Assembly (NCBI GenBank): GCA_947650365.1
Contig: OX393551.1
Coordinates: forward strand, 2,686,001 to 2,750,000
Source: Chamaelirium japonicum
Lineage: Eukaryota > Streptophyta > Magnoliopsida > Liliales > Melanthiaceae
DNA length: 64,000 bases
Direction: 5' to 3'
This document shows positions 8,376-64,000 of this stretch, piece by piece. The position numbers and the translations under genes were made by a program. Numbering within the stretch: the stretch's first letter is position 1; each line of letters begins with the position of its first letter. The notes below the pieces were generated by a model. That model had not been told where the DNA came from. It saw nothing but the letters and a program-made list of their open reading frames with translations, and ran no database searches.

Positions 8376-9609
8376 AGATCCATTCTTACTCATTCGTACG
8401 ATCCATTCGTATCCATTCTAATTCATTCGTACGATCCATTCTAATTCATTAATACGATCCAAACTAATTCATTCATACGATCTATTCTAATTCATTCGTA
8501 CGATCCATTCTAATTCATTCGCACGATCCATTCTAATTTATTCATACGATCCATTCTATTTCATTCGTACGATCCATTCTTACTTATTCGTACGATCCAT
8601 TATAATTCATTTGCACGAAGGTATCCATTCTAATTCATTCGTACGATCCATGCTAATTCATTCGCATGAATTAGAATGGATCGTACGAATGTATTAGAAT
8701 AGATCGTACGAATGAGTAAGAATGGATCGTACGAATGGATCGTACGAATGAATTAGATTGGATCGTATGAATGAATACATTCTAATTCATTCGCATGAAT
8801 TATCCATTCTAAGTCATTCGTACGATCCATTCGATCTCATTCGTACAATCCATTCTATTTCATTCGTACGATCCATTCTAATTCATTCGCACGATCCATT
8901 CTAATTCATTCGCATGATCCATTCTAATTCATTCGTACGATTGATTCTAATTCATTCATACGATCCATTCTAATTTATTTGCACGATCCATTCTAATTCA
9001 TTCATACGATCCATTCTAATTAATTCATATGATCCATTCTAATTCATTCGCACGATCCAATCTAATTCATTCGTACGATCCATTCTAATTCATTCTAATG
9101 GATACATTCGTGCAAAAGAATTAGAATGGATTGTATGAATGAATTAGAATCGATCGTACGAATGAATTAGAATGGATCATGCGAATGAATTAGAATGGAT
9201 CGTAAGAATGAATTAGAATGGATCGTATGAATGAATTAGAATGGATCGTGCGAATGAATTAGAATGGATCGTACGAATGAAATAGAATGGATTCACACGA
9301 ATGTATCCAATCTAATTCATTCGTACGTTCCATTCTAATTCATTCGTACAATCTATTCTAACTCATTCGTACGATCCATTCTAATTCATTCGCACGATCC
9401 ATTCTAATTCATTAATACGATCCATTCTAATTCATTCGCACGATCCATTCTAATTCATTCACACTCATACGATCCATTCTAATTCATTCGCACGAATGTA
9501 TCCTTTCTAATTCATTCATACGATCCATTCTAATTCATTCGCACAATCTATTCTAATTCATTCGAACGATCCATTCTAATTCATTCGTACGATCCATTCT
9601 AATTCATTC
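8376..9609. repeat. Mosaic of short F and R blocks
   Basis: F runs near 8376-8660, 8778-9090 and 9300-9605 alternate with R runs at 8665-8775 and 9095-9290. The stretch 8376-8490 carries the CCATTCGTATCC/AATACGATCCAATC module also seen at 12720-12840, 25750-25880, 27330-27440, 57930-58040 and 60140-60200. The switch at 9285-9312 is a J1 junction with one changed base. Confidence 0.83.
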
Positions 9610-10140
9610 GTACGAATGAATTAGAATGGATACATTCATGCGAATGAATTTGAATGGATCATACGAATAAATTAGAATGGATTCATTCGTGCGAATGAAT
9701 TAGAATGGATCGTACGAATGAGTAAGAATGGATCGTATGAATGAATTAGAATGGATTGAATTAGAATGAATCGTACGAATGAATTAGAATGGATCATACG
9801 AATGAATTAGAATGGATCGTACGAAAGAATTAGAATGGATTGAATTAGAATGAATCGTACGAATGAATTAGAATGAATCATACCGTACGAATGAATTATA
9901 ATGGATCATACGAAGGAATTAGAATGGATTGTACGAATGAATTAGAATGGATCATACAAATGAATTAGAATGGATCGTACGAAGGAATTAGAATGGATCG
10001 TACGAATGAATTAGAATGGATACCTTCGTGCAAATGAATTAGAATGGATCGTACGAATGAGTAAGAATGGATCGTACGAATGAAATAGAGTGGATCGTAT
10101 GAATGAATTAGAATGGATCGTATGAATGAATTAGAATGGA
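9610..10140 (-). repeat. R block, inverted match to 36115-36320
   Basis: It carries, in order, the AATCATACCGTACG motif (module M4, about 9870), AAGGAATTAG monomers, module M1 at 10018 and a terminal J1 at 10134. Read on the minus strand, 9965-10159 gives almost the same 64-residue translation as the plus strand of 36117-36311. The two are thus inverted copies about 26 kb apart. Confidence 0.87.
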
Positions 10141-10161
10141 TACATTCGTGCGAATCCATTC
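10134..10161. repeat. J1, the commonest orientation-switch junction
   Basis: 28 bp: arms GAATGGAT and ATCCATTC around ACATTCGTGCGA. It joins R (left) to F (right). I find 19 copies in this sense (starts 10134, 11873, 14306, 14546, 15288, 15482, 24595, 26708, 28416, 29754, 42814, 48899, 49274 partial, 50714, 53097, 54788, 56728, 58879, 61562 partial). Another 14 are reverse-complemented (9285, 12040, 12962, 16520, 23142, 32341, 33660, 36115, 39366, 43552, 50492, 60985, 62096, 63567). The flank on the TCGTGCG side is the same in most complete copies: a TATTTC monomer, then CGTACG, CGCACG and CATACG monomers. This indicates one ancestral junction that spread. Confidence 0.9.
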
Positions 10162-10557
10162 TATTTCATTCGTACGATCCATTCTAATTCATTCGCACGA
10201 TCCATTCTAATTCATTCATACGATCCATTCTAATTTCTTCGTACGATCCATTCTAATTCATTCGTACGATCGATTCTAATTCATTCATACGATACATTCT
10301 AATTCATTCGTACGATCCATTCTAATTCATTCGTACGATCCATTCTAATTCGTGCGAATGTATCCATTCTAATTCATTCGTACGATCCATTCTAATTCAT
10401 TCGTACGAATGTATCCATTCTAATTCATTTGTACGAATGTATCCACTCTAATTCATTCGTACGATCCATTCTAATTCATTAGCATGATCCATTCTAATTC
10501 ATTCGTACGATCCATTCTAATTCATTTATACGATCCAATCTAATTCATTCGCACGAT

Positions 10558-10582
10558 CCATTCGCATTCACTCAAACGATCC
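10558..10582. repeat. Module M2 (divergent CTCAAACG monomer)
   Basis: A 23-bp monomer with CGCATTCACTCAAACG in place of TAATTCATTCGTACG, several substitutions from consensus yet well conserved between copies. F: 10558, 12230, 23470, 28652, 43892, 58373, 59256, 61076, 62187, 63658. R: 14182, 15163, 28229, 31470, 53056, 54700, 58788. It is usually next to CGCACG and often within 150-250 bp of J1. Confidence 0.87.
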
Positions 10583-10975: not shown

Positions 10976-11895
10976 ATGAATTAGAATGGATCGTACGAAT
11001 GAATTAGAATGGATACATTCGTGCAAAAGAATTAGAATGGATTGTATGAATGAATTAGAATGGATCGTGCGAATGAATTAGAATGGATCATGCGAATGAA
11101 TTAGAATGGATCGTACGAATGAGTAAGAATGGATCGTACGAATGAATTAGAATGGATTGAATTAGAATGAATCGTATGAATGAATTAGAATGGATCGTAC
11201 GAATGAATTAGAATGGATCGTACGAATGAATTAGAATGGATGGAATTAGAATGAATCGTACGAATGAATTAGAATGAATCATACCGTACGAATGAATTAG
11301 AATGGATCATACGAAGGAATTAGAATTGATCGTACGAATGAAATAGAATGGATCATGCTAATGAATTAGAATGGATCGTACGGATGAATTAGAATGGATA
11401 CATTCGTGCAAAGGAATTAGAATGGATCGTACAAATGAATTAGGATGGATCGTACGAATGAATTAGAATGGATCGTGCGAATGAATTAGAATGGATCGTA
11501 CGAATGAAATAGAATGGATTCGCACGAATGAATTAGAATGGATCGTTCGAATGAATTAGAATAGATTGTGCGAATGAATTAGAATCGATCGTACGAATGA
11601 ATTAGAAAGGATATATTCGTGCGAATGAATTAGAATAGATTGTATGAATGAATTAGATTGGATCGTATTAATGAATTAGAATGGATTGTGCGAATTAATT
11701 AGAATGGATCGTATGAATGAATTAGAATGAATAGATTCGTGCGAATGAATTTGAATGGATCGTACGAAGGAATTAGAATGGATACATTCGTGCGAATGAA
11801 TTAGAATGGATCGTACGAAGGAATTAGAATGGATTGTACGAGTGAATTAGAATGGATCGTAATAATGAATTAGAATGGATACATTCGTGCGAATC
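10976..11895 (-). repeat. R block with M4 and GATATATTCG module
   Basis: Contains the M4 motif at about 11280 and, at about 11605-11780, an AAAGGATATATTCG...GTATTAATG...ATAGATTCG series. That series is shared with 45690-45800, 53985-54170 and 55843-56030. It ends at J1 (11873-11900). Confidence 0.87.
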
Positions 11896-13068
11896 CATTC
11901 TATTTCATTCGTACGATCCATTCTAATTCATTCGCACGATCCATTCTAATTCATTCATACGATCCATTCTAATTGGATCGTATGAATGAATTAGAATGGA
12001 TCGTGCGAATGAATTAGAATGGATCGTACGAATGAAATAGAATGGATTCGCACGAATGTATCCATTCTAATTCATTCATACGATCCATTCTATTTCATTC
12101 ATACGATCCATTCTATTTCATTCGTACGATCCATTCTAATTCATTCGTATGATCCATTCTAATTCATTCGTACCATTCATTCTAATTCAATCCATTCTAA
12201 TTCATTCCATTCTAATTCATTCGCACGATCCATTCGTATTCACTCAAACGATCCGTTCTACTTCATTCATACAATCCATTCTAATTCTTTTGCACGAATG
12301 TATCCATTCTAATTCATTCGTACGATCCATTCTAATTCATTCGTATGATCTATTCTAATTCATTCGCATGATCCATTCTAATTCCTTCGTATGATCCATT
12401 CTAATTCATACGTACGATCTATTCTAATTCATTCATACGATCCATTCTAATTCATTTGCACGATCCATTCTAATTCATTCGCATGATCCATTCTAATTCA
12501 TTCGTACGATCGATTCTAATTCATTCATACGATCCATTCTAATTCATTCGCACGAATGTATCCATTCTAATTTATTTGTACGATCCATTCTAATTCATTC
12601 TTACGATCCATCCTAATTCATTCGCACGAATGTATCCATCCTAATTCATTCGCACGAATGTATCCATTCTAATTCATTCGTACAATCCATTCTATTTCAT
12701 TCGTACGATCCATTCTTACTCATTCGTACGATCCATTCGTATCCATTCTAATTCATTCGTACGATCTATTCTAATTCATTCGTACGATCCATTCTAATTC
12801 ATTAATACGATCCAATCTAATTCATTCATACGATCCATTCTAATTAGATTAGACCGTATACATGAATTAGAATGGATCGTACGAATGAATTAGAATGGAT
12901 CGTACGAATGAGTAAGAATGGATCGTGCGAATGAATTAGAATGGATCGTACGAATGAAATAGAATGGATTCGCACGAATGTATCCATTCTAATTCATTCA
13001 TACGACCCATTCTAATTCATTCGTACGATCCATTCTTACTCATTCATACGATCTATTCTAATTCATTC
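11896..13068. repeat. F-rich segment, distant duplicate of 57700-58050
   Basis: A short F run (11896-11975), R run (11976-12055), then F from 12056 to 12845, R 12850-12970 and F 12975-13068. J1 copies sit at 12040 and 12962. An M2 monomer is at 12230-12254. From about 12480 to 12840 the monomer order matches 57729-58040 about 45 kb away, apart from one extra 28-bp monomer and single-base changes. Confidence 0.85.
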
Positions 13069-14325
13069 GTACGAATGAAATAGAATGGATCGTACGAATG
13101 AATTAGAATAGATTGTGCGAATGGATTAGAATGGATCATACGATTGAGTAAGAATGGATTGTACGAATGAAATAGAATAGATCGCACGAATGAATTAGAA
13201 TGGATCGTATGAATGAATTAGAATGGATCGTGCGAATGAATTAGAATGGATCGTACGAATGAATTAGAATGGATCGTACGAAGGAATTAGAATGGATCGT
13301 ACGAATGAATTAGAATGGATCGTACAAATAAATTAGAATGGATACGAATGGATCGTATGAATGAATTAGAATGGATCGTACGAATGAAATAGAATGGATC
13401 GTACGAAGGAATTAGAATGGATCATATGAATGAATTAGAATGGATCGTATGAATGAAATAGAATGGATCGTACGAATGAATTAGAATGGATTGAATTAGA
13501 ATGAATCGTACGAATGAATTAGAATGGATCGTACGAATGAATTAGAATGGATCGTACGAATGAATTAGAATGGATTGAATTAGAATGAATCGTACGAATG
13601 AATTAGAATGGATCGTGCGAATGAATTAGAATGGATCGTACGAATCGATCGTGCGAATGAAATAGAATGGATCGTATGAATGAATTAGAATGGATCGTGC
13701 GAATGAATTAGAATGGATTGTACGAATATATTAGAATGGATTGAATTAGAATGAATCGTACGAATGAATTAGAATGAATCATACCGTACGAATGAATTAG
13801 AATGGATCATACGAAGGAATTAGAATGGATCGTACGAATGAATTAGAATGGATCGTATGAAGGAATTAGAATGGATCGTACGAAGGAATTAGAATGGATA
13901 GTACGAATGAATTAGAATGGATACCTTCGTGCAAATGAATTAGAATGGATCGTACGAATGAGTAAGAATGGATCGTACGAATGAAATAGAATGGATCGTA
14001 TGAATGAATTAGAATGGATCGTACGAATGAATTAGAATGGATCGTACAAATGAATTAGAATGGATCGTATGAATGAATTTGAATGGATCGTGCGAATGAA
14101 TTATAATGGATCGTACGAATGAAATAGAATGGATACATTCGTGCGAATGAATTAGAATGGATCATCTGAATGAATTAGAATGGATCATTTGAGTGAATGC
14201 GAATGGATCGTGCGAATGAATTAGAATGGATCGTACGAATGAAATAGAATTGATCGTACGAATGGATCGTACGAATGAATTAGAATGGATCGTATGAATG
14301 AATTAGAATGGATACATTCGTGCGA
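13069..14325 (-). repeat. R block, first half of 982-bp composite
   Basis: Contains module M3 (about 13108), a GGATACGAATGG short monomer (about 13340) whose surroundings match 39080-39250, M4 (about 13785), M1 (13919) and an M2 monomer at 14182-14206. The part from about 13830 onward belongs to the 982-bp tandem duplication. Confidence 0.88.
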
Positions 14326-15700
14326 ATCCATTCTATTTCATTCGTACGATCCATTCTAATTCATTCGCACGATCCATTCTAATTCATTCATACGATCCAT
14401 TCTAATTCATTCGTACGATCCATTCTAATTCATTCATACGATCCATTCTAATTCATTCGTACGATCCATTCTAATTCCTTCGTACGATCCATTCTAATTC
14501 ATTCGTATGATCCATTCTAATTCATTCGCACGATCCATTGAATTTGAATGGATACATTCGTGCGAATCCATTCTATTTCATTCGTATGATCCATTCTAAT
14601 TCATTCGCATAATCTATTCTAATTCGTACAATCTATTCTAATTCATTACTATGATCCATTCTAATTCATTCGCACAATATATTCTAATTCATTCATACGA
14701 TCCATTCTAATTCATTCGTACGGTATGATTCATTAGAATGGATCATATGAATGAATTAGAATGGATCGTATGAATGAATTAGAATAGATTGTGCGAATGA
14801 ATTAGAATGGATCGTACGAATGAATTAGAATGGATCGTACGAAGGAATTAGAATGGATCGTACGAAGGAATTAGAATGGATAGTACGAATGAATTAGAAT
14901 GGATACCTTCGTGCAAATAAATTAGAATGGATCGTACGAATGAGTAAGAATGGATTGTACGAATGAAATAGAATGGATCGTATGAATGAATTAGAATGGA
15001 TCGTACGAATGAATTAGAATGGATCGTACGAATGAATTAGAATGGATCGTATGAATGAATTAGAATGGATCGTGCGAATGAATTATAATGGATCGTACGA
15101 ATGAAATAGAATGGATACATTCGTGCGAATGAATTAGAATGGATCATATGAATGAATTAGAATGGATCGTTTGAGTGAATGCGAATGGATCGTGCGAATG
15201 AATTAGAATGGATCATACGAATGAAATAGAATTGATCGTACGAATGGATCGTACGAATGAATTAGAATGGATCGTACGAATGAATTAGAATGGATACATT
15301 CGTGCGAATCCATTCTATTTCATTCGTACGATCCATTCTAATTCATTCGCACGATCCATTCTAATTCATTCATACGATCCATTCTAATTCATTCGTACGA
15401 TCCATTCTAATTCATTCGTACGATCCATTCTAATTCCTTCGTACGATCCATTCTAATTCATTCGCATGATCCATTGAATTAGAATGGATACATTCGTGCG
15501 AATCCATTCTATTTCATTCGTATGATCCAATCTAATTCATTCGCACAATCTATTCTAATTCGTACAATCCATTCTAATTCATTACTACGATCCATTCTAA
15601 TTCATTCGCACAATCTATTCTAATTCATTCGTACGATCCATTCTAATTCATTCGTACGGTATGATTCGTTAGAATGGATCATATGAATGAATTAGAATGG
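13830..15700. repeat. 982-bp composite tandem duplication with junctions
   Basis: Module M1 occurs at 13919 and 14901, and J1 at 14306 and 15288, both 982 bp apart. Rare variants (TATAATGG, CATTTGAG or CGTTTGAG M2 monomer, GAATTGATCG) follow in the same order. Further right, a second J1 pair (14546 and 15482) and GGTATGATTC F-to-R joins (about 14720 and 15660) are shared, with the shift reduced to 936 bp by loss of two monomers. Each unit carries its own two R-to-F switches, so inverted blocks were copied as a set. Confidence 0.88.
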
Positions 15701-16520
15701 ATCGTACGAATGAATTAGAATGGATCGTACGAATGAATTAGAATGGATCGTATGCATGAATTAGAATGGATCGTGCGAATGAATTAGAATGGATCGTACG
15801 AATGAATTAGAATGGATCGTACAAATGAATTAGAATAGATCGTATGAATGAATTAGATTGGATCGTATTAATGAATTAGAATGGATCGTACGAATGAATT
15901 AGCATGGATTGAATTAGAATGAATCGTACGAATGAATTAGAATGAATCATACCGTACGAATGAATTAGAATGGATCATACGAAGGAATTAGAATGGATCG
16001 TATGAATGAATTAGAATGGATCGTACGAATGAAATAGAATGGATCGTATGAATGAATTAGAATGGATCGTGCGAATAAATTACAATGGATCGTATGAATG
16101 AATTAGAATGGATCGTACGAAAGAATTAGAATAGATAGTGCGAATGAATTAGAATGGATCGTACGAATGAATTAGAATGGATCGTACAAATGAATTAGAA
16201 TAGATTGTGCGAATGAATTAGAATGGATCGTACGAATGAATTTGAATGGATCGTGCGAATGAATTAGAATGGATCGTACGAATGAATTAGAATCGATTGT
16301 GCGAATGAATTAGAATGGATCGTACGAATGAATTAGAATGGATCGTATGAATGAATTAGAATGGATCGTATGCATGAATTAGAATGGATCGTGCGAATGA
16401 ATTAGAATGGATCGTACGAATGAATTAGAATGGATCATACGAAGGAATTAGAATGGATCGTATGAATGAATTAGAATGGATCGTGCGAATGAATTAGAAT
16501 GGATCGTACAAATGAAATAG
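15666..16520 (-). repeat. R block ending in J1
   Basis: About 37 monomers with M4 (about 15945), a GTATGCATG variant seen twice (about 15750 and 16365) and the typical three-monomer approach to J1 at 16520-16547. Confidence 0.88.
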
Positions 16521-16529
16521 AATGGATTC

Positions 16530-18399
16530 GCACGAATGTATCCATTCTAATTCATTCATACGATCCATTCTAATTCATTCATACGATCCATTCTATTTCA
16601 TTCGTATGATCCATTCTTACTCATTCGTACGATCCATTCTAATTCATTTGCATGATCCATTCTAATTCATTCATACGATCCATTCAAATTTCTTCGTACG
16701 ATCCATTCTAATTCATTCGTACGATCCATTCTAATTCATTCGCACGATCCATTCTAATTCATGCATACGATCCATTCTAATTCATTACTACAATCCATTC
16801 TAATTCATTCATACGATCCATTCTAATTCCTTCGTATGATCCATTCTAATTTATTCGCACGATCCATTCTAATTCATTCGTACGATCCATTCTAATTCAT
16901 TCGTACGATCCATTCTAATTCATTCGCACGAATGTATCCATTCTAATTCATTCGTACAATCCATTCTTACTCATTCGTAATGAATTAGAATGGATACATT
17001 CGTGCAAAAGAATTAGAATGGATTGTATGAATGAATTAGAATGGATCATGCAAATGAATTAGAATGGATTGTGCGAATGAATTAGAATGGATCGTACGAA
17101 TGAATTAGAATAGATCATACGTATGAATTAGAATGGATACATTCGTGCGAATGAATTAGAATAGATCGTGCGAATGAATTAGAATGGATCGTACGAATGA
17201 ATTAGAATGGATCGTACGAAGGAATTAGAATGGATACACGATCCAGATCCATTCTAATTCATTCGCACGATCCATTCTAATTCATTCGTACGATCCATTC
17301 TAACTCATTCGCATGATCCATTCTAATTCATTCGCACGATCCATTCTAATTCATTCGCACGATACATTCTAATTCATTCGTACGATCCATTCTAATTTAT
17401 TCGCACAATCCATTCTTACTCATTCGTACGATCCATTCTAATTCATTTGCACGAAGGTATCCATTCTAATTCATTCGTACTATCCATTCTAATTCCTTCA
17501 TACGATCCATTCTAATTCCTTCGTACGATCCATTCTAATTCATTCGTACGATCCATTCTAATTCATTCATACGATCCATTCTAATTTATTCGCACGATCC
17601 ATTCTAATTCATTCTTACTCAATCGTATGAATGAATTAGAGTAGATACATTCGTACAAATGAATTAGAATGGATCGTACGAATGAATTAGAATGGATACA
17701 TTCGTGCGAATGAATTAGAATGGATCGTATGAATGAATTAGAATGGATCGTATGAATGAATTTGAAAGGATACATCCGAATTCATTCGTACGATCCATTC
17801 TAATTCATGCGCACAATCCATTCTAATTCATTCGTACGATCCATTCTAATTCATTCATACAATCCATTCTACTTCTTTTGCACGAAAGTATCCATTCTAA
17901 TTCATTCGTACGATCCATTCTAATTCATTCATACAATCCATTCTAATTCATTCTAATCCATTCTAATTCATTCGTACGATCCATTCTAATTCATTCGCAC
18001 AATCTATTCTAATTCCTTCGTACGATCCATTCTAATTCATTCGCACAATCTATTCTAATTCATTCGAACGATCCATTCTAATTCATTCGTACGATCCATT
18101 CTAATTCATTCGTACGATCCATTCTAATTCATTCGCACGATCCATTCTTATTCATTCGCACGATCCATTCTAATTCATTAGCATGATCCATTCTAATTCA
18201 TTCGTATGATCCATTCTTACTCATTCGTACGATCCATTCTAATTCATTCGTTCGATCCATTCTAATTCATTCGTACGATCCATTCTAATTCATTCGCACG
18301 ATCCATTCTACTTCATGCATTCGATCCAATCTAATTCATTCATACGATCCATTCTAATTCATTCGCACGAATGTATCCATTCTAATTCATACGTACAGG
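16530..18399. repeat. Alternating F and R blocks
   Basis: F 16530-16975, R 16978-17235, F 17245-17620, R 17622-17775, F 17778-18395. The switches are J2 (17227) and J3 (about 17765). The F-to-R join CATTCGTAATGAATTAG near 16975 recurs at about 47485. A partial copy of the 240-bp unit (GTTCGATCC at 18250) ends at an unusual ACAGGTATG break near 18395. Confidence 0.85.
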
Positions 18400-19125
18400 T
18401 ATGAATGAATTAGAATGGATCGTACGAATGAGTAAGTATGGATCGTACGAATGAATTAGAATGGATTGAATTAGAATGAATCGTACGAATGAATTAGAAT
18501 GGATCGTACAAATGAATTAGAATGGATCGTGCTAATGAATTAGAATGGATCGTACGAATGAATTAGAATGGATCGTATGAATGAATTAGAATGGATACAT
18601 TCGTGCAAAAGAATTAGAATGGATTGTATGAATGAATTAGAATGGATCGTGCGAATGAATTAGAATGGATCGTACGAATGAATTAGAATGGATCGTATGA
18701 ATGAATTAGAAAGGATCATAGTAATGAATTAGAATGGATCCTACGAATGAATTAGAATGGATCGTATGAATGAATTAGAATGGATCGTACGAATGAATTA
18801 GAATGGATTGAATTAGAATGAATCGTACGAATGAATTAGAATGGATCGTACGAATGAATTAGAATGGATCGTGCTAATGAATTAGAATGGATCGTACGAA
18901 TGAATTAGAATGGATCGTATGAATGAATTAGAATGGATACATTCGTGCAAAAGAATTAGAATGGATTGTACGAATGAATTAGAATGGATCGTGCGAATGA
19001 ATTAGAATGGATCGTACGAATGAATTAGAATGGATCGTATGAATGAATTAGAATGGATCGTAGTAATGAATTAGAATGGATCCTATGAATGAATTAGAAT
19101 AGATTGTGCGAATGAATTAGAATGG
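18400..19125 (-). repeat. R block with 342-bp tandem
   Basis: The 15-bp monomer at 18461 and the GTGCAAAAG 28-bp monomer at about 18601 recur at 18803 and 18943, exactly 342 bp later. The period equals thirteen 23-mers plus one 15-mer plus one 28-mer. GTGCTAATG and GTAGTAATG variants are shared. It ends at J2 (about 19119). Confidence 0.86.
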
Positions 19126-19134
19126 ATCTGGATC

Positions 19135-20437
19135 GTGTATCCATTCTAATTCATTCATACGACCCATTCTAATTCATTCGTACGATCCATTCTAATTCAT
19201 TCGCACGATCCATTCTAATTCATTCATACGATCCATTCTAATTCATTCATACAATCCATTCTAATTCTTTTGCACGAATGTATCCATTCTAATTCATTCG
19301 TTCGATCCATTCTAATTCATTCATACAATCCATTCTAATTCATTCTAATCCATTCTAATTCATTCGTACGATCCATTCTAATTCATTCGCACAATCTATT
19401 GTAATTCATTCGTACGATCCATTCTAATTCATTCGTACGATCCATTCTATTTCATTCGTACGATCCTTTCTAATTCATTCGCACAATCTATTCTAATTCA
19501 TTCGTACGATCCATTCTAATTCATTCGTACGATCCATTCTATTTCATTCGTACGATCCATTCTAATTTATTCGCATGATCCATTCTAATTCATTCATACG
19601 ATCCATTCTAATTCATTCATACGATCCATTCTAATTCATTCGTACGATCCATTCTAATTCATTCGTACAATCTATTCTAATTCATTCGTACGAATGTATC
19701 CACTATAATTCATTCATACGATCCATCCTAATTCATTTGTACGAATGTATCCACTCTAATTGATTCATACGATCCATTCTAATTCATTCGCCCGAATGTA
19801 TCCATTCCAATTCATTCGTACGATCCATTCTAATTTATTCGCACAATCTATTCTAATTCATTCGTACGATCAATTCTTATTCATTAGCATGATCCATTCT
19901 AATTCATTCGTACGATCTATTCTAATTCATTCGTACGATCCATTCTAACTCATTCGCACGATCCATTCTAATTCTTTCGTACAATCCATTCTATTTCATT
20001 CGCTTGATCCATTCTAATTCATTCATACGATCCATTCTAATTCATTCGTACGATCCATTATAATTCATTCATACGATCCATTCTAATTCATTCGCACAAT
20101 CTATTCTAATTCATTCGTACGATCCATTCTAATTCATTCGCACGATCCATTCTAATTCATTCATACGATCCATTCTAATTCATTCGTACGATCTATTCTA
20201 TTTCATTCATACAATCCATTCTTACTCAATCGTACTATCCATTCTAATTCCTTCGTACGATCCATTCTAATTCCATCGTACGATCCATTCTAATTCATTC
20301 GTACGATCCATTCTAATTCCTTCGTATGATCCATTCTAATTCATTCGTACGGTATGATTCATTCTAATTCATTCGTACGATTCATTCTAATTCAATCCAT
20401 TCTATTTCATTCGTACGATCCATTCTTGCTCATTCGT
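19135..20437 (+). repeat. F block, about 1.3 kb
   Basis: About 56 monomers. The right part (about 20100-20450) matches 22140-22490 in the order of rare variants (CAATCGTACTATCC, CCTTCG pairs, GGTATGATTC, 15-bp monomer), a shift of about 2,040 bp. It ends in a turn-around at CTCATTCGTGCGAATG. Confidence 0.88.
20350..20402. repeat. Module M4 (GGTATGATTC plus 15-bp monomer)
   Basis: In F: CGTACGGTATGATTC, a GATTCATTC monomer, then the 15-bp monomer TCTAATTCAATCCAT, which lacks exactly the 8-bp core. F copies near 20350, 22385, 24725, 27225, 34970, 36395, 43775, 44230, 48570 (start only), 53300, 57105, 58205. R copies (GAATCATACCGTACG) near 9885, 11275, 13785, 15945, 23910, 29065, 31310, 45605, 49725. 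Truncated ones mark F-to-R switches at about 14720 and 15660. Confidence 0.84.
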
Positions 20438-20439: not shown

Positions 20440-21008
20440 GAATGAATTAGAATGGATCGTACGAATGAATTAGAATGGATACGAATGGATCGTACGAATG
20501 AGTAAGAATGGATCGTACGAATGAAATAGAATAGATTGTACGAATGAATTAGAATGGATCATACGAATGAATTAGAATGGATTCATTCGTGCGAATGAAT
20601 TAGAATGGATCGTACGAATGAGTAAAACGGATCGTGCGAATGAATTAGAATGGATCGTACGAATGAAATAGAATGGATTGTACGAATGAGATAGAATGGA
20701 TCGTACGAATAAATTAGAATGGATACATTCATGCGAATGAATTAGAATCGATCATACGAATGAATTAGAATGGATTCATTCGTGCGAATAAATTAGAATG
20801 GATCGTACGAATGAGTAAGAATGGATCGTACGAATGAATTAGAATGGATCGTATGTATGAATTAGAATGGATTGAATTAGAATGGATTGTACGAATGAGA
20901 TAGAATGGATCGTGCGAATGAATTAGAATGGATCGTACGAATGAATTAGAATGGATTGTACAAATGAGATAGAATGGATCGTATGAATGAATTAGAATGG
21001 ATACATTC
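20440..21008 (-). repeat. R block ending in J3
   Basis: Contains a GGATACGAATGG short monomer (about 20470), repeated GAGATAG monomers and the J3 junction at about 21000. The last 60 bp and the junction are nearly repeated at 22586-22650. Confidence 0.88.
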
Positions 21009-21025
21009 GAATTCATTCGTACGAT
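20995..21025. repeat. J3, switch junction with GAATTC centre
   Basis: A GGATACATTCGAATTCATTCG join. Copies in this sense are near 4715, 17765, 21000, 22638, 30605, 41845 and 42165. Reverse-complement copies (GAATGAATTCGAATGTATCC type) are near 20, 2735, 30430 and 42510. Several have AAAGGATACATCC. The turn lies in CGAATTCATTCG, not in the TCGTACGA core. Confidence 0.84.
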
Positions 21026-26720: not shown

Positions 26721-26729
26721 CGTGCGAAT

Positions 26730-29950: not shown

Positions 29951-30044
29951 ACGATCCATTCTAATTCCTTCGTATGATCCATTCTAATTCATTCGTACGA
30001 TCCATTCTAATTCATTCGTACAATCCATTCTAATCCATTCGTGC

Positions 30045-32345: not shown

Positions 32346-32354
32346 GATTTGCAC

Positions 32355-50500: not shown

Positions 50501-50509
50501 CGCACGAAT

Positions 50510-53105: not shown

Positions 53106-53111
53106 CATTCG

Positions 53112-53920
53112 TGCGAATCCATTCTATTTCATTCGTACGATCCATTCTAATTCATTCGCACGATCCATTCTAATTCATTCATACGATCCATTCTAATTCA
53201 TTCGTACGAACCATTCTAATTCATTCGTATGATCCATTCTAATTCATTCGTACGATCCATTCTAATTCCTTCGTATGATCCATTCTAATTCATTCGTACG
53301 GTATGATTCATTCTAATTCATTCGTACGATTCAATCTAATTCAATCCATTCTAATTCATTCGTACGATCCATTCTAATTCATTCGTACGATCCATTCTAA
53401 TTCATTCGTTCGATCCATTCTAATTCATTCGTACGATTCATTCTAATTCTAATTCATTCGTACGATCCATTCTAATTCCTTCGTACGATCCATTCTAATT
53501 CATTCCTACGATCCATTCTAATTCATTCGCACGATTCATTCTAATTCATTCGTACGATCTATTCTATTTCATTCATACGATCCATTCTAATTCATTCATA
53601 CGATCTATTCTAATTCTTTCGCACGAATGCATCCATGCTAATTCATTCGTACGATCCATTCTAATTCATTCGTACGATCCATTCTAATTCATTCGTACGA
53701 TCCATTCTAATTCATTTGCACAATCTATTCTAATTCATTCGCACGATCCATTCTAATTCATGCATACGATCCATCTAATTCATTCGCACGAATGTATCCA
53801 TTCTAATTCATTCGCACAATCTAATTCATTCATACGATCCATTCTAATTCATTCGTACGATCTATTTTAATTCATTCATACGATCCATTCTAATTCATAC
53901 AATCTATTCTAATTAGAATG
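53112..53920 (+). repeat. F block after J1
   Basis: About 35 monomers with M4 (about 53300), a TTCTAATTCTAATTC box duplication (about 53440) and a GCACAATCTAATTC deletion. It switches to R at CTAATTAGAATGG (about 53918), the same join type as at 2571, 4898 and 62340. Confidence 0.87.
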
Positions 53921-54795
53921 GATCGTACTAATGAATTAGAATAGATTGTGCTAATGAATTAGAATGGATCGTACGAATGAATTAGAAAGGATATATTCGT
54001 GCGAATGAATTAGAATTGATCGTATGAATGAATTAGATTGGATCGTATTAATGAATTAGAATGGATCGTGCGAATGAATTAGAATGGATCGTACGAATGA
54101 ATTAGAATGGATAGATTCGTGCGAATGAATTTGAATGGATCGTACGAAGGAATTAGAATGGATAGTACGAAGGAATTAGAATAGATCATACGAAGAAATT
54201 AGAATGGATCGTACGAATGAATTAGAATGGATCGTATGAATGAATTAGAATGGATCATGCGAATGAATTAAAATGGATTGTATGAATGAAATAGAATGGA
54301 TCGTATGAATTAGAATGGATCGTACGAATGAAATAGAATGGATCGTACGAATGAATTAGAATAGATTGTGCGAATGGATTAGAATGGATGATACGATTGA
54401 GTAAGAATGGATTGTACGAATGAAATAGAATAGATCGTACGAATGAATTAGAATGGATCATGCTAATGAATTAGAATTGATCGTACGAATGAATTAGAAT
54501 ATATTGTGCAAATGAATTAGAATGGATCGTACGAATGAATTGGAATGGATACATTCGTGCGAATGAATTAGAATGGATCGTATGAATGAATTAGAGTGGA
54601 TACATTCGTACAAATAAATTAGAATGGATCGTACGAATGAATTAGAATGGATACATTCATGCTAATAAATTAGAATGGATCATATGAATGAATTAGAATG
54701 GATCGTTTGAGTGAATGCGAATGGATCGTGCGAATGAATTAGAATGGATTGTACGAATGAATTAGAATGGATCGTACGAATGAATTAGAATGGAT
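53920..54795 (-). repeat. R block, SD3 copy A
   Basis: 53960-54480 matches 55820-56340 with a shift of 1,858 bp (ATATATTCG at 53991 and 55849). In order: GATATATTCG, GTATTAATG, ATAGATTCG, AAGAAATTAG, a 19-bp monomer, M3. An M2 monomer is at 54700-54724. It ends at J1 (54788-54815). Confidence 0.89.
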
Positions 54796-54804
54796 ACATT
54801 CGTG

Positions 54805-56735
54805 TGAATCCATTCTATTTCATTCGTACGATCCATTCTAATTCATTCGCACGATCCATTCTACTTTATTAATACGATCCATTCTAATTCATTCGTACGA
54901 TCCATTCTAATTCATTCGCACGAATGTATCCATTCTAATTCATTCGTACATGTATGAATGAATTAGAATGGATCGTACGAATGAATTAGATTGGATCGTG
55001 CGAATGAATTAGAATGGATCGTACGAATGAATTAGAATGGATTGAACGAATGAATTAGAATGGATACATTCGTGCGAAAGAATTAGAATTGATCGTATGA
55101 ATGAATTAGAATGGATCGTATGAATGAAATAGAATGGATCGTACGAATGAAATAGAATGGATCGTATGAATGAATTAGAATGGATCGTGCGAATGAATTA
55201 GAATGGATCGTACGAATGAATTAGAATAGATTGTGCGAATGAATTAGAATGGATCGTACGAATGAATTAGATTGGATCGTACGAATGAATTAGAATGGAT
55301 CGTGCGAATGAATTAGAATGGATCGTACGAATGAATTAGAATGGATCGTATGAATGAAATAGAATGGATCGTATGAATTAGAATGGATCGTATGAATGAA
55401 ATAGAATAGATCGTATGAATGAATTAGAATAGATTGTGCGAATGGATTAGAATGGATCATACGATTGAGCAAGAATGGATTGTACGAATGAAATAGAATA
55501 GATCGTACGAATGAATTAGAATGGATCGTATGAATGAATTAGAATGGATCGTGCGAATGAATTAGAATGGATCGTACGAATGAATTAGAATGGATCGTAC
55601 GAAGGAATTAGAATGGATTGTACGAATGAATTAGAATAGATCATACGAATGAATTAGAATGGATACGAATGGATCGTACGAATGAGTAAGAATGGATCGT
55701 ACGAATGAAATAGAATGGATCGTACGAATGAATTAGAATGAATCGTATGAATGAATTAGAATGGATCGTACGAATGAATTAGAATGGATCGTACGAATGA
55801 ATTAGAATGGATTGAATTAGAATGGATCGTACGAATGAATTAGAAAGGATATATTCGTGCGAATGAATTAGAATAGATCGTATGAATGAATTAGATTGGA
55901 TCGTATTAATGAATTAGAATGGATCGTGCGAATGAATTAGAATGGATCGTACGAATGAATTAGAATGGATAGATTCGTGCGAATGAATTTGAATGGATCG
56001 TACGAAGGAATTAGAATGGATCGTACGAAGGAATTAGAATAGATCATACGAAGAAATTAGAATAGATCGTACGAATGAATTAGAATGGATCGTATGAATG
56101 AATTAGAATGGATCGTGCGAATGAATTAAAATGGATAGTATGAATGAAATAGAATGGATCGTATGAATTAGAATGGATCGTACGAATGAAATAGAATGGA
56201 TCGTACGAATGAATTAGAATAGATTGTGCGAATGGATTAGAATAGATCATACGATTGAGTAAGAATGGATTGTACGAATGAAATAGAATAGATCGTACGA
56301 ATGAATTAGAATGGATCATGCTAATGAATTAGAATAGATCGTACGAATGAATTAGAATAGATTGTGCGAATGAATTAGAATGGATCGTACGAATGAATTA
56401 GAATGGATTGTACGAATGAAATAGAATAGATCGTACGAATGAATTAGAATGGATCATGCTAATGAATTAGAATTGATCATACGAAGGAATTAGAATGGAT
56501 CGTACGAATGAATTAGAATGGATCGTACGAATGAATTAGAATGGATCGTACGAAGGAATTAGAATGGATCGTACGAAAAAATTAGAATGGATAGTACGAA
56601 TGAATTAGAATGGATACCTTCGTGCAAATGAATTAGAATGGATTGTATGAATGAATTAGAAGGGATCATACAAATGAATTAGAATGGATTGTACGAATGA
56701 ATTAGAATGGATCGTACGAATGAATTAGAATGGAT
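54805..56735 (-). repeat. Short F then long R block, SD3 copy B
   Basis: F 54805-54950 ends at an ACATGTATG break; R follows to 56735. M3 occurs near 55435 and 56225, and 19-bp monomers near 55370 and 56160. 55820-56340 is the second copy of SD3. M1 is at 56612. It ends at J1 (56728). Confidence 0.88.
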
Positions 56736-56744
56736 ACATTCGTG

Positions 56745-58600
56745 CGAATCCATTCTATTTCATTCGTACGATCCATTCTAATTCATTCATACGATCCATT
56801 CTAATTCATTCGTACGATCCATTCTAATTCATTCGTACGATCCATTCTAATTCATTCGTACAATCCATTCTTACTCAATCGTATGATCCATTCTAATCCA
56901 TTCGCACAATCTATTCTAATTCATTCGTACGATCCATTCTATTTCATATGCACGAAGGTATCCATTCTAATTCATTCATACTATCCATTCTAATTCCTTC
57001 GTACGATCCATTCTAATTCATTCGTACGATCCATTCTAATTCATTCGCACGATCCATTCTATTTCATTCGTACGATCCTTCGTATGATCCATTCTAATTC
57101 ATTCGTACGGTATGATTCATTCTAATTTATTCGTACGATTCATTCTAATTCAATCCATTCTAATTCATTCGTACGATCCATTCTAATTCATTAATACGAT
57201 CCAATCTAATTCATTCTTACGATCCATTCTAATTCATTCGTACGATCCATTCAAATTCATTCGCACGATCCATTCTAATTCATTCGCACGATCCATTCTA
57301 ATTCATTCATACGATCCATTCTAATTCATTCGTACGATCAATTCTAATTCATTCATACGATCCATTCTAATTCATTCGTACGATCCATTCTAATTCATTC
57401 GCAAGATCCATTCTAATTCATTCGTACGATCCATTCTTACTCAATCGTATGATCCATTCTATTCCATTCGCACAATCTACTCTAATTCATTGGTACGATC
57501 CATTCTATTTCATTTGCACGAAGGTATCCATTCTAATTCATTCGTACTATCCATTCTAATTCCTTCGTACGATCCATTCTAATTCATTCGTACGATCCAT
57601 TCTAATTCATTCGCACGATCCATTCTAATTCATTCGTACGATCCATTCTATTTCATTCATACAATCCATTCTAATTCATTCATACGATCCATTCTAATTC
57701 ATTCGCACGATCCATTCTAATTCATTCGCATGATCCATTCTAATTCATTCGTACGATCGATTCTAATTCATTCATACGATCCATTCTAATTCATTCGCAC
57801 GAATGTATCCATTCTAATTCATTCGTACGATCCATTCTAATTCATTCATACGATCCATCCTAATTCATTCGCACGAATGTATCCATTCTAATTCATTCGT
57901 ACAATCCATTCTATTTCATTCGTACGATCCATTCTTACTCATTCGTGCGATCCATTCGTATCCATTCTAATTCATTCGTACGATCTATTCTAATTCATTC
58001 GTACGATCCATTCTAATTCATTAATACGATCCAATCTAATTCATTCGTACGATCCATTCTAATTCATTCGCACGATCCATTCTAATTCATTCGCACGATC
58101 CATTCTAATTCATTCATACGATCCATTCTAATTCACTCGTACGATCCATTCTAATTCATTCATACGATCCGTTCTAATTCATTCATATGATCCATTCTAA
58201 TTCATTCGTACGGTATGATTCATTCTAATTCATTCGTACGATTCATTCTAATTCAATCCATTCTAATTCATTCATACGATCCATTCTAATTCATTCGTAC
58301 GATCCATTCTAATTCATTCATACGATCCATTCTAATTCACTCGTACGATCCATTCTAATTCATTCGCACGATCCATTCGCATTCACTCAAACGATCCATT
58401 CTAATTCATTCATATGATCCATTCTAATTCATTCGCACGAATGTATCCATTCTAATTCATTCGTACGATCCATTCTAATTCATTTGTCCGAATGTATCCA
58501 CTCTAATTCATTCATATGATCCATTCTAATTCATTCGCACGAATGTATCCATTCCAATTCATTCGTACGATCAATTCAAATTCATTCGCACGATCTATTC
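56745..58600 (+). repeat. Long F block, about 1.9 kb
   Basis: About 80 monomers. M3 copies at about 56875 and 57440 and M1 copies at 56949 and 57514 give a 565-bp duplicate. M4 is at about 57105 and 58205. 57729-58040 is the distant copy of 12480-12840. M2 is at 58373. It exits at CTATTCGAGAATGG. Confidence 0.89.
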
Positions 58601-58601: not shown

Positions 58602-58890
58602 AGAATGGATCGTATTAATGAATTAGAATGGATCGTGCGAATGAATTAGAATGGATCGTACGAATGATAAAGAATGGATCGTGCGAATGAATTAGAATGG
58701 ATCATATGAAAGAATTAGAATGGATCGTATGAATGAATTTGAACGGATCGTATGAATGAATTCGAATGGATCGTACGACTGAATTAGAATGGATCGTTTG
58801 AGTGAATGGGAATGGATCGTGCGAATGAATTAGAATGGATTGTACGAATGAATTAGAATGGATCGTACGAATGAATTAGAATGGATACAT
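58602..58890 (-). repeat. Short R block
   Basis: About 12 monomers with an M2 variant (GTGAATGGGAATGG, 58788-58815), ending at J1 (58879, spacer base changed to TTGGTGCG). Confidence 0.86.
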
Positions 58891-58899
58891 TGGTGCGAA

Positions 58900-60580
58900 T
58901 CCATTCTATTTCATTCGTACGATCCATTCTAATTCATTCGCACGATCTATTCTAATTCATTCATACGATCCATTCTAATTCATTCATACGATCCATTCTA
59001 ATTCATTCGTGCGATCCATTCTAATTCATTCATACGATCCATTCTAATTTATTCGCACGATCCATTCTATCTCATTCGTACAATCTATTCTATTTCATTC
59101 GTACGAATGTATCCATTCTAATTCATTCGTACGATCCATTCTAATTCCTTCGTACGATCCATTCTAATTCCTTCGTACGATCTATTCTAATTCATTCCCA
59201 TGAATGTATCCATTCTAATTGATATGTACGATCCATTCTAATTCATTCGTGCGATCCATTCGCATTCACTCAAACGATCCATTCTAATTCATTCATATCA
59301 TCCATTCTAATTCATTCGCACGAATGTATCCATTCTATTTCATTCGTACGATCTATTCTAATTCATTCGTACGATCCATTCTAATTCATTCGTACGATCC
59401 ATTCTAATTCATTCGCACAATCTATTCTAATTCATTCATACGATCTATTCTAATTCATTACCATGATCCATTCTAATTCATTCGTACGATCTATTCTATT
59501 TCATTCGTACAATCCATTCTTACTCAATCGTATGATCCATTCTAATCCATTCGCACAATCTATTCTAATTCATTCGTACGATCCATTCTATTTCATTCGT
59601 ACGATCTATTCTAATTCATACGATCCATTCTATTTCATTCATACAATCCATTTTAATTCATTCGCACGATCCATTCTAATTCATTCATACGATCTATTCT
59701 AATTCATTCGTACGATCCATTCTAATTTCTTCGTATGATCTATTCTAATTCCTTCGTACGATCCATTCTAATTCCTTCGTACGATCCATTCTAATTCATT
59801 CGCAAGAATCTATCCATTCTAATTCATTCGTACGATCCATTCTAATTCATTCGCACGATCCATTCTAATTCATTAATACGATCCAATCTAATTCATTCAT
59901 ACGATCTATTCTAATTCATTCGCACGAATATATCCTTTCTAATTCATTCGTACGATCCAATTTCATTTATCCGTATGATCTATTCTATTTCATTCGTACG
60001 ATACATTCTTATCGTACGATCCATTCTAATTCAATCCATTCTAATTCATTCGTACGATCCATTCTAATTCATTCGTACGATCCATTCTAATTCATTCGTA
60101 CGATTCATTCTAATTCAATCCATTCTAATTCATTCGTACGATCCATTCTTACTCATTCGTACGATCCATTCGTATCCATTCTAATTCATTCGTACGATCT
60201 ATTCTAATTCATTCGTACGATCCATTCTAATTCCTTCGTACGATCCATTCTAATTCATTCGTACGATCCATTCTGATTCATTCGCACGATCCATTCTAAT
60301 TCATTCGTACGATCCATTCTATTTCATTCATACGATCCATTCTAATTCATTCATACGATCTTTTCTAATTCTTTCGCACGAATGTATCCATTCTAATTCA
60401 TTCGTATGATCCATTCTAATTCATTCGCACGATCCATTCTAATTCATTCATACGATCCATTCTAATTCATTCGCATGATCCATTCTAATTCATTCGCACG
60501 ATCCATTCTAATTCATTCGTACGATCCATTCTAATTCATTCTAATTCATTCGCACGATCCATTCTAATTCATGCATACGA
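58900..60580 (+). repeat. Long F block, inverted partner of SD3
   Basis: 59463-59702 repeats, in the opposite orientation, the series at 56080-56319: M3, 19-bp monomers, CATTTTAATTC. M2 is at 59256. The TTCTTATCGTACG irregular join (about 60010) recurs from 33850. The block ends at GCATACGAATGAATCG. Confidence 0.88.
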
Positions 60581-60584: not shown

Positions 60585-60990
60585 ATCGTACGAATAGATT
60601 GTGCGAATGGATTAGAATGGATCATACGATTGAGTAAGAATGGATTGTACGAATGAAATAGAATAGATCGTATGAATGAATTAGAATGGATCGTGCGAAT
60701 AAATTAGAATGGATCGTATGAATAAATTAGAATGGATCGTGCGAATGAATTAGAATATAGATCGTACGAATGAATTAGAATGGATCGTACGAATGAATTA
60801 GAATGGATCGTGCGAATGAATTAGAATGGATCGTACGAATGAATTAGAATAGATTGTGCGCATGAATTAGAATGGATCGTACGAATGAATTAGAATGGAT
60901 CGTACGAATGAATTAGAATGGATCGTACGAATGAATTAGAATGGATCGTGTGAATGAATTAGAATGGATCGTACGATTGAAATAGAATGG
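60585..60990 (-). repeat. R block with M3
   Basis: Starts directly with M3 (about 60595), has an ATATAGATCG break (about 60755) and ends at J1 (60985-61012) through a GTACGATTGAAATAG monomer. Confidence 0.87.
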
Positions 60991-60999
60991 ATTCGCACG

Positions 61000-61865
61000 A
61001 ATGTATCCATTCTAATTCATTCGTACGATCCATTCTAATTCATTCGTACAATCCATTCTAATTCATTCGCACGATCCATTCGCATTCACTCAAACGATCC
61101 ATTCTAATTCATTCATATGATCCATTCTAATTAATTCGTACGATCCATTCTAATTCATTCGTACGATCCATTCTAATTCATTCGCACAATCTATTCTAAT
61201 TCATTCGTATGATCCATTCTAATTCATTCGCACGATCCATTCTAATTCATTCGTACGATCCATATTCTAATTCATTCGCACGATACATTCTAATTCGAAC
61301 CATTCTAATTCATTCGTACGATCCATTCTAATTCATTCATACAATTCATTCTAATTCATTCGCACAATCTATTCTAATTCATTCGTACGATCCATTCTAA
61401 TTCATTCGCACGATCCATTCTAATTCATTCGTACAATCCATTCTTACTCATTCGTACGATCCATTCTAATTCATTTGCACGAAGGTATCCATTCTAATTC
61501 ATTCGTACTATCCATTCTAATTCCTTCGTACGATCCATTCTAATTCCTTCGTACGATCCATTCGGATACATTCGTGCGAATCCATTCTATTTCATTCGTA
61601 CGATCCATTCTAATTCATTCGCACGATCCATTCTAATTCATTCATACGATCCATTCTATTTCATTCGTACGATCCATTCTTACTCATTCGTACGATCCAT
61701 TCTAATTCATTCGCACGATCCATTCTACCATTCTATTTCATTCGTACGATCTATTCTAATTCATTCGCACGATCCATTCTAATTCATTCATACGATCCAT
61801 TCTAATTCCTTCGTACGATCCATTCTAATTCATTCGTACGATCCATTCTAATTCATTCGCACGAT
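61000..61865 (+). repeat. F block with embedded J1 fragment
   Basis: M2 is at 61076 and M1 at 61485. A J1 at 61562 follows CCATTC directly, so its left arm is missing and orientation stays F. A CTACCATTC dimer break is at about 61730. The J1, M2 order is repeated at 62096 and 63567. Confidence 0.86.
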
Positions 61866-62340
61866 GGATCGTACGAATGAAATAGAATGGATTGTACGAA
61901 TGAGATAGAATGGATCGTACGAATGAATTAGAATGTATAATTCATGCGAATGAATTAGAATGGATCGTGCGAATGAATTAGAATGGATCGTACGAATGAA
62001 TTAGAATGGGTCGTACGAATGAATTAGAATGGATCGTATGAATGAATTAGAATGGATCTTGCGAATGAATTAGAATGGATCGTACGAATGAAATAGAATG
62101 GATTCGCACGAATGTATCCATTCTAATTCATTCGTACGATCCATTCTAATTCATTCGTACAATCCATTCTAATTCATTCGCACGATCCATTCGCATTCAC
62201 TCAAACGATCCATTCTAATTCATTCATATGATCCATTCTAATTCATTCGCACGAATGTATCCATTCTATTTCATTCGTACGATCTATTCTAATTCATTCG
62301 CACGATCCATTCTAATTCATTCATATGATCCATTCTAATT
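61866..62340. repeat. R block then F block
   Basis: R 61866-62100 with a GTATAATTCATGCG 28-mer variant ends at J1 (62096). F 62110-62340 repeats the J1, GTACAATCC, M2 order seen after 60985 and 63567, then switches at CTAATTAGAATGG. Confidence 0.86.
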
Positions 62341-63575
62341 AGAATGGATTGTACGAATGAATTAGAATAGATTGTGCGAATGAATTAGAATGGATCGTGC
62401 GAATGAGTTAGAATGGATCATACGGAGGAATTAGAATGGATCGTACGAATGAATTAGAATGGATCGTGCGAATGAATTAGAATGGATCGTACGAATGAGT
62501 AAGAATGGATCGTACGAATGAAATAGAATGGATCGTACGAATGAATTTTAATGGATCGTGCGAATGAATTAGAATTGATCGTACGAATGAATTAGAATAG
62601 ATTGTGCGAATGAATTAAAATGATTCGTATAAATGAATTAGAATGGATCGTATGAGTGAATTAGAATGGATACGAAGGAATTAGAATGGATCGTACGAAT
62701 GAATTAGAATGGATCGTATGAATGAAATAGAATGGATCGTACGAATGAATTAGAATGGATCGTGCGAATGAATTAGAATGGATCTTACGAATGAATTAGA
62801 ATGGATCGTACGAAGGAATTAGAATGGATAGTACGAATGAATTAGAATGGATACCTTCGTGCAAATGAAATAGAACGGATCGTACGAATGAATTAGAATG
62901 GATCGTATGAATGAATTAGATTGGATCGTATTAATGAATTAGAATGGATCGTACGAATGAATTAGAATAAATCGTACGAATGAATTAGAATGGATACGAA
63001 TGGATCGTACGAATGAGTAAGAATGGATCGTACGAATGAAATAGAATGGATTGTACGAATGAATTAGAATGGATACATTCGTGCGAATGAATTAGGATGG
63101 ATCGTATGAATGAATTAGAATGGATCGTACGAATGAATTAGAATGGATACATTCGTGTGAATGAATTAGAATGGATCGTATGAATGAATTAGAATAGATT
63201 TTACGAATGAATTTGAATGGATCATGCGAATGAATTAGAATGGATCGTGCGAATGAATTAGAATGGATCGTATGAATGAATTAGAATAGATCATACGAAT
63301 GAATTAGAATGGATCGTACGAAGGAATTAGAATGGATCGTACGAAGGAATTAGAATCTATTCTAATTCATTCGTATGAATTAGAATGGATCGTACGAATG
63401 AATTAGAATGGATCGTGCGAATGAATTAGAATGGATTGTACGAATGAATTAGAATGGATCGTACGAATGAATTAGAATGGATCGTACGAATGAATTAGAA
63501 TGGATCGTATGAATGAATTAAAATGGATCATGCGAATGAATTAGAATGGATCGTACGAATGAAATAGAATGGATT
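62341..63575 (-). repeat. R block with small F interruption
   Basis: Contains M1 (62849) and a GGATACGAATGG short monomer (about 63000). A 25-bp F scrap near 63350-63375 sits in a perfect turn, GAATTAGAATCTATTCTAATTC. It ends at J1 (63567-63594). Confidence 0.87.
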
Positions 63576-63584
63576 CGCACGAAT

Positions 63585-64000
63585 GTATCCATTCTAATTC
63601 ATTCGTACGATCCATTCTAATTCATTCGTACAATCCATTCTAATTTATTCGCACGATCCATTCGCATTCACTCAAACGATCCATTCTAATTTATTCATAT
63701 GATCCATTCTAATTCATTCGCACGAATGAATCCATTCTAATTCATTCGCACGATCCATCTAATTCATTCATACGATCCATTCTATTTCATTCGTACGATC
63801 CATTCTTACTCATTCGTACGATCCATTCTAATTCATTTGCACGTTGGTATCCATTCTAATTCATTCGTACTATCTATTCTAATTCCTTCTTACGATCCAT
63901 TCTAGTTCCTTCGTACGGATGAGTAAGAATGGATAGTACGAATGAATTATAATGGATCGTACGAATGAATTAGCATTGATCGTGCTAATGAATTAGAATG
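63585..64000. repeat. F block, then R to window edge
   Basis: F 63585-63920 with M2 (63658) and a mutated M1 (GCACGTTGGTATCC, 63839). R resumes at TTCGTACGGATGAG and runs off the window, so the array continues past this edge; the first base of the window is also inside a monomer. Confidence 0.87.

Follow-up and report, generated by a model that had tools for sequence, protein, structure and literature searches.

Why does a satellite array that changes strand again and again reuse a handful of junctions for one direction of change and many for the other? The question is raised by a 64,000-bp stretch of the Chamaelirium japonicum genome (positions 2,686,001-2,750,000 of contig C3, OX393551.1, within the 1.52-Gb assembly GCA_947650365.1), hereafter the window, which from position 1 to 64000 is an array of a 23-bp satellite in 117 blocks of alternating strand. 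We call the monomer ATCCATTCTAATTCATTCGTACG F and its reverse complement R, and each switch of strand is either R-to-F (RF) or F-to-R (FR). This single satellite covers 63,979 of the 64,000 bases (those at most 15 bases from a monomer match), and the strand flips about every 550 bp. Such switches are a tracer of satellite spread, a process that is hard to study directly: because RF and FR switches are equal in number in any strand-flipping array, a comparison of their diversity reads which junction lay inside the copied segments and which was made by the copying event.

Polarity contrast in the window

Strand and phase were assigned by a 46-state Viterbi segmentation, which gave 70 RF and 70 FR switches (blocks of 9 to 2293 bp) before merging and 58 of each after blocks shorter than 30 bp had been merged, figures between which lie the roughly 64 RF switches reported by the first-pass annotation of this DNA. 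Of the 12 switches of each polarity that merging removed, some look spurious and others real. The switches retained were grouped into families by their flanks of 30 bp on either side, compared in both orientations under average linkage with a cut at 13%, and the family counts exclude switches in stretches with a monomer cover of 90% or less. Diversity is expressed by the Simpson index, which is the probability that two switches drawn at random belong to one family.

The 58 RF switches fell into 8 families (the largest with 29, 11, 11, 2 and 2 members), with a Simpson index of 0.313 (half-sampling interval 0.212-0.503), whereas the 58 FR switches fell into 29 families (the largest with 6, 6, 6, 3 and 3 members), with an index of 0.038 (0.018-0.068), an 8.2-fold ratio. 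The three largest families thus hold 88% of the RF switches versus 31% of the FR switches. The three RF families, which we take to be J1, J2 and J3 of the first-pass annotation, account for 51 of the 58 RF switches (J1 29, J2 11, J3 11) and, between positions 9285 and 63594, for 42 of 46 (J1 29, J3 8, J2 5), the earlier estimate being about five in six; the 45 FR switches of the same interval belong to 25 families, the largest of 6 members. Their cores, each also present inverted, are GAATGGATTCGCACGAATG joined to TATCC for J1, GGATCTGGATCGTGT joined to ATCC for J2 and GAATTCGAATG joined to TATCC for J3. The contrast was robust to other flank sizes and cuts, and a comparison tolerant of jitter in switch position placed 57 RF switches in 6-10 families and 58 FR switches in 22-36. 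Clustering by polarity had been expected to give few groups for one polarity and many for the other; this is what was found, and the contrast in the window is confirmed as real. The pairs at 14540/14555, 15476/15491 and 48893/48908 are hidden by merging: in this conserved arrangement J1 stands 15 bp from one of a set of similar FR switches, with an R arm of only 15 bp.

The diversity claimed for the FR switches was found, but not their uniqueness, since 43 of the 58 share a family with another FR switch of the window (35 to 48 under jitter-tolerant cuts, with 35 and 39 at the stricter ones). One such family recurs at 9096, 30923, 35517, 35880, 38033 and 38419 and another at 10974, 13073, 20436, 22478, 25163 and 30041, while a single FR family of the lineage defined below, counted genome-wide, has 2,270 copies. 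J2 stands 55 bp from the same FR switch in six adjacent pairs. Conserved pairs of this kind occur on the plus strand at 2872-2930 (FR switch 2872, J2 2908-2930) and 3314-3372 (FR switch 3314, J2 3350-3372) and in inverted form on the minus strand at 4077-4136 (J2 4077-4099, FR switch 4136) and 4542-4601 (J2 4542-4564, FR switch 4601).

Reach of the bias and descent of J1

Elsewhere in the assembly we sampled twenty 10-kb stretches and eleven further stretches, which are satellite only in part, and family counts cover the window together with nine loci of 10 kb each and 40 kb of contig C1. Two loci, L029 and L031, stand outside the C1 and unplaced groups of the family counts and are placed with the other arrays for the duplicate, jitter and recurrence counts where they pass. 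The pattern of the window recurs at five satellite loci of C2 and C3, with 43 RF switches in 7 families (Simpson index 0.467) and 40 FR switches in 17 (0.068). Together, the window and these loci, which we call the C2/C3 lineage, hold 101 RF switches in 10 families (0.368) and 98 FR switches in 36 (0.042). The arrays of C1, C20 and C100 differ: their 46 RF switches form 12 families with an index of 0.188 (half-sampling interval 0.121-0.273), and their 45 FR switches form 14 with an index of 0.154 (0.095-0.213), an interval overlapping that of the RF switches. In these C1-type arrays a polarity bias is weak or absent, although a mild one may exist. Among the arrays examined, the RF bias therefore holds in one array family and is no general rule of the repeat. 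The proposal that a few RF founders were amplified stands for the C2/C3 lineage and fails as a general rule; likewise, the equal clustering of both polarities that had been named as its refutation is absent from the C2/C3 lineage and roughly describes the C1, C20 and C100 arrays.

The C1-type arrays have amplified founders of their own in both polarities, with 15,706 exact copies genome-wide for the main RF founder and 8,546 for an FR founder. Of 98 listed C1 copies of the RF founder, 21 have a listed copy of this FR founder within 420 bp (mean 5.4 and maximum 14 in a null of 2000 rotations), and among the matches listed the spacing from RF to FR founder is 180 bp in eight cases (exactly), 377 bp in four and 382 bp in three. 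Founders of both polarities exist, and the content of the amplified segment would seem to differ between the lineages. The density of switches also varies, with 58 RF switches in the 64 kb of the window and 29 in the 40 kb of C1. Along the G000 contig C1 between about 2.49 and 2.83 Mb, among the matches listed, RF spacings of 6122, 1607 and 4287 bp recur at 2.490 and 2.660 Mb, and spacings of about 8.0 kb and 2662 bp occur at four places; these repeated spacings suggest direct duplications of at least 10 kb that carry whole sets of switches.

Do the many copies of J1 descend from one junction? Its exact 24-mer occurs 13,395 times in the genome, and we judged descent by clustering and by a linked variant, in place of a tree. 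The variant GAAATAGAATGG is present in the nearest R-arm monomer of 48 of the 58 J1 copies of the C2/C3 lineage, against a background of 8.4% of such R-arm monomers in the C2/C3 loci overall. Over all pairs of another set of 58 copies (53 from the lineage and 5 from C1 loci), the flank held in common has a median of 79 bp in the R arm and 52 bp in the F arm, so the conserved flanks of several monomers described earlier are borne out. Because of this linked variant and the shared flanks, most J1 copies are related by descent, and the independent origins that would have counted against the original proposal were not seen for most of them; the ten copies without the variant could be recombinants or could be separate. 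The sequences support one main origin of J1 with copying in both orientations. Agreement among copies declines gradually outward in both arms and homology stops at many points, a pattern without the fixed ends of a fold-back type of mobile element.

J2 has 4,940 exact copies genome-wide, and a 76-bp haplotype that includes it has 1,919, which, among the matches listed, lie at either end of C2 as well as on C3. An apparent run of J1 on one strand of C2 was discounted: the later matches listed for other junctions, among them those that supplied the 98 C1 copies of the RF founder, are likewise all on the plus strand, a pattern taken to come from the omission of reverse matches, and locus L013 holds J1 in both orientations.

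Segment copying and competing explanations

Copying in both orientations is directly visible in the sampled arrays, where non-overlapping duplicates of at least 250 bp and at least 96% identity number 331 direct and 313 inverted (334 and 315 before 5 overlapping pairs were dropped). The inverted spread of junctions proposed at the outset is borne out by this near equality. Within the C2/C3 lineage, 48 duplicates contain one RF switch and no FR switch, versus 12 with one FR switch and no RF switch. The ends of duplicates in this lineage lie at an FR switch in 86 of 468 cases and at an RF switch in 54, counts to be read with the fact that homology necessarily breaks off at any switch that the two copies do not share; in the other arrays the figures are 71 and 79 of 816. 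Within the window, the segments 23604-24604 and 28786-29763 carry a matching series of four switches (FR, RF, FR, RF), and 24167-24884 and 29326-30042 form a direct duplicate of 97% identity with two RF switches and one FR switch inside.

These observations can be assembled into a scheme in which the arrays would grow by the copying of segments in both orientations, the alternation of strands keeping RF and FR equal in number. In the C2/C3 lineage a few RF junctions, above all J1, would have been copied often on short segments that usually lack an FR switch. As strands must alternate, a segment holding just one RF switch should, on geometric grounds, add exactly one FR switch when it is copied, and vice versa; each such copy would keep the old RF junction and have its change of strand closed by a different FR switch, and RF switches would for this reason be poor in kinds and FR switches rich. 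In the other sampled arrays, junctions of both polarities would have been amplified, and the two members of one pair often keep a constant distance. On balance, we think it somewhat probable that founder RF junctions spread in this one lineage on short FR-free segments; the pasting-in of the copied segment, and the birth of a new FR switch in that step, are what such a history would entail.

How far chance could produce the same gap was examined by simulation. Under polarity-blind copying at matched junction density, none of 60 runs reached a Simpson ratio of 8 and the maximum was 3.7, so that, as modelled, chance is an unlikely source of the contrast in the C2/C3 lineage. Copying that preferred RF-bearing insertions was then compared at a setting yielding about 40 FR families: with a preference of 90%, that ratio was reached in 3 of 20 runs, with 18 RF and 42 FR families, and with one of 100% in all 20, with 1 RF and 39 FR families. 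The observed lineage, with a ratio of about 9 and with 10 RF and 36 FR families, lies between these two settings, and within this simple model the diversity gap calls for an RF switch in nearly every copied segment. Inverted insertions that carry no junction are suppressed as well by the bias setting of the model. When both polarities were given a single theta, Ewens sampling yielded probabilities of at most about 7e-6 over seven thetas, with 3000 draws each.

Several results weigh against spread on FR-free segments. FR switches are mostly recurrent, 82 of 98 having a sister within the C2/C3 lineage, and five of the seven FR families with at least 4 members in that lineage diverge more internally than J1 does (0.041-0.069 versus 0.034). 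Not all FR switches therefore look younger than J1, and the age of the FR families relative to J1 is mixed. The claim that FR ends are made anew at each insertion consequently does not hold as stated, as most recur, some families are more divergent than J1 and J2 keeps its FR partner at 55 bp. In the sample, the best homology stops before the FR switch in 65 of 113 FR-bounded J1 arms; it reaches the switch in the other 48, of which 24 extend more than 60 bp beyond it, and the ends of J1 homology favour neither pasting nor conversion. A search for empty-site footprints of insertion, with arms of 80 and 140 bp, found none above control, a test of low power because, in many of the zero-edit hits, what was matched is just the uninterrupted copy inside the searched stretch. 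In the sample behind the family counts the loci of one lineage are non-independent replicates, the simulation is simple and its density-controlling deletion rule is ad hoc. Finally, a jitter-tolerant comparison at the 13% cut gives a threefold bias in the C1-type arrays as well (50 RF switches in 8 families, index 0.427; 49 FR switches in 15, index 0.141), which shrinks to 1.4- and 1.5-fold at cuts of 7% and 10%.

The most serious competitor is that J1, J2 and J3 took over existing RF sites by gene conversion or were preferentially retained there, by which J1 would have swept like a favoured allele. As every RF switch is flanked by R to the left and F to the right, RF junctions are interchangeable by homologous conversion and FR switches would be left untouched. 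The early stop of homology in those 65 arms, the gradual loss of agreement between copies, the five more divergent FR families and the missing insertion footprints all suit it. It requires, however, an advantage specific to J1 that nothing here demonstrates, the window having neither an Rfam match nor a 200-residue open reading frame, and the somewhat higher RF density of the window than of C1 fits, if weakly, with junctions having been added and not replaced. No direct trace of conversion tracts was found, though none was looked for; we regard conversion as a tenable but rather improbable account. A little less probable still, though in keeping with the simple model, is that J1 in the C2/C3 lineage, and less strongly also J2 and J3, is self-favouring: copying or conversion would start at, or favour, RF junctions almost exclusively (90-100% in the model), making of J1 a selfish module, with little beyond 100 bp commonly shared, that spreads between chromosomes. 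Polarity-blind drift, in which the common junctions are RF by chance, draws some credit from the weak or absent bias of the C1-type arrays, as expected of something that is not a rule, but the density-matched simulations and the Ewens sampling, as modelled here, disfavour it and make it improbable; a further 96 earlier simulated arrays, far too dense in junctions and not relied on, likewise never reached the observed ratio.

Other accounts would place the asymmetry in the junctions themselves or in the data. An artefact of assembly or of chimeric reads deserves mention, since satellite assemblies are error-prone and the junctions are known here from the assembly alone; the same junctions nevertheless recur thousands of times, near-equally on both strands and, among the matches listed, on at least two contigs of chromosome size, and such an artefact seems very unlikely. 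If J1 formed repeatedly at a hotspot, such as a preferred fold-back site, one might expect the median arm spacer of 12 nt that J1 and the main C1-type RF family have in common, as well as the ten copies lacking the linked variant; this repeated origin is hard to credit beside the variant in the other 48, the shared flanks of several monomers and an exact 24-base core in 13,395 copies, and it is the linked variant above all that disfavours it. The least credible alternative holds that FR switches were once few and became diverse only in appearance, by trimming at hairpin tips. Short spacers of 0-4 nt are indeed found in 32 of 99 FR switches versus 11 of 100 RF switches of the C2/C3 lineage, but FR switches of different families share both arms in 2 cases where 7.5 are expected under independence (8,686 comparisons), which is no excess of shared arms, and an FR family with a spacer of 0 has been amplified to 11 members in the C1-type arrays. 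The latter family also leaves spacer length unsupported as a cause of the bias. Read as a tracer, the strand switches suggest that the segments on which this satellite was amplified differed in kind between two of its lineages within the same genome.

Junction positions, genome setting and known systems

By family clustering, J1 lies on the plus strand of the window at 9285-9308, 12040-12063, 12962-12985, 16520-16543, 23142-23165, 32341-32364, 33660-33683, 36115-36138, 43552-43575, 50492-50515, 60985-61008, 62096-62119 and 63567-63590, with a variant one base shorter at 24224-24246 and 29383-29405, and on the minus strand at 10138-10161, 11877-11900, 14310-14333, 15292-15315, 24599-24622, 26712-26735, 28420-28443, 29758-29781, 42818-42841, 50718-50741, 53101-53124, 54792-54815, 56732-56755 and 58883-58906. 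Besides the four paired copies given above, J2 is found at 5314-5336, 19120-19142, 35685-35707 and 38224-38246 (plus) and at 2085-2107, 17232-17254 and 43310-43332 (minus). J3 occurs at 2738-2756, 30434-30452 and 42515-42533 (plus) and at 4716-4734, 17768-17786, 20999-21017, 22639-22657, 30613-30631, 41848-41866 and 42164-42182 (minus); a further plus-strand member of its family is given by its switch position, 39, where the core is unmatched within 4 edits.

Searches of the window gave no Rfam match at the gathering threshold, no open reading frame of 200 amino acids and no gene. Genome-wide, an exact 28-mer of the satellite is present in 621,619 and 616,939 copies on the two strands, 224 of them in the window, and its density in the sampled arrays is 2.2-5.4 per kb; by crude extrapolation from these densities, the satellite would total some hundreds of megabases. 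Contig C3 starts with CCCTAAA repeats, the plant telomere type (L039, first 1000 bases), and the end of C2 lies within satellite, its final 1000 bases holding no telomere repeat (L037). Many junction places, among the matches listed, lie at 1.3-4.4 Mb of C1 to C3 or in the final 2 Mb of C2, with scattered places in the interior of C1. On C3, positions 500,001-510,000 are non-satellite and the first J2 place among the matches listed is at 1.29 Mb. That stretch (L014, C3 at 0.5 Mb) and L012 (C2 at 1.0 Mb) are alike in their first 50 bases, possibly another subterminal repeat, and some of the remaining sampled loci, L030 and C1a among them, include non-satellite stretches.

Long arrays of a simple satellite that switch strand internally are familiar, human HSat among them, and higher-order repeats are known in which blocks of several monomers are copied together at high identity. 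Unlike higher-order repeats, the array of the window has no regular multi-monomer period among the tandem-repeat rows listed (29 more exist), where the periods are multiples of 23 bp or short and local, and its copies lie in both orientations. No paper containing the monomer strings was found, nothing among the literature matches listed was a fit except the Tribolium paper described below, and a polarity bias limited to one lineage appears new within the literature searched.

The closest comparison is with Tribolium madens, where the excerpted account describes macro-dyad symmetries of the satellites TmSat1 and TmSat2 with conserved inversion sites (INV_1a, INV_1b and INV_2), a few sequences distinct from ordinary monomers that recur almost unchanged thousands of times, and states that such symmetries are documented only in Tribolium (PMC13081366). 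As far as that excerpt goes, both systems have strand-flipping arrays of a satellite and its own inverted form, here as 117 alternating blocks in 64 kb, and in both a few inversion-site sequences exist in thousands of copies, here 13,395 for J1, 4,940 for J2 and 15,706 and 8,546 for the C1-type founders. The scale differs, the Tribolium arrays being described as kilobase subarrays, mostly two per array, whereas the blocks here measure 9-2293 bp unmerged and number 117 after merging. The same excerpt has a second satellite embedded as a cassette with fixed transition zones, unlike the single satellite that makes up 63,979 of the 64,000 bases of the window, and places the arrays in putative (peri)centromeres; many of the arrays sampled here are near contig ends. 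What further marks the present analysis off from the Tribolium account, in the part excerpted, is that the two polarities of switch were compared with each other.

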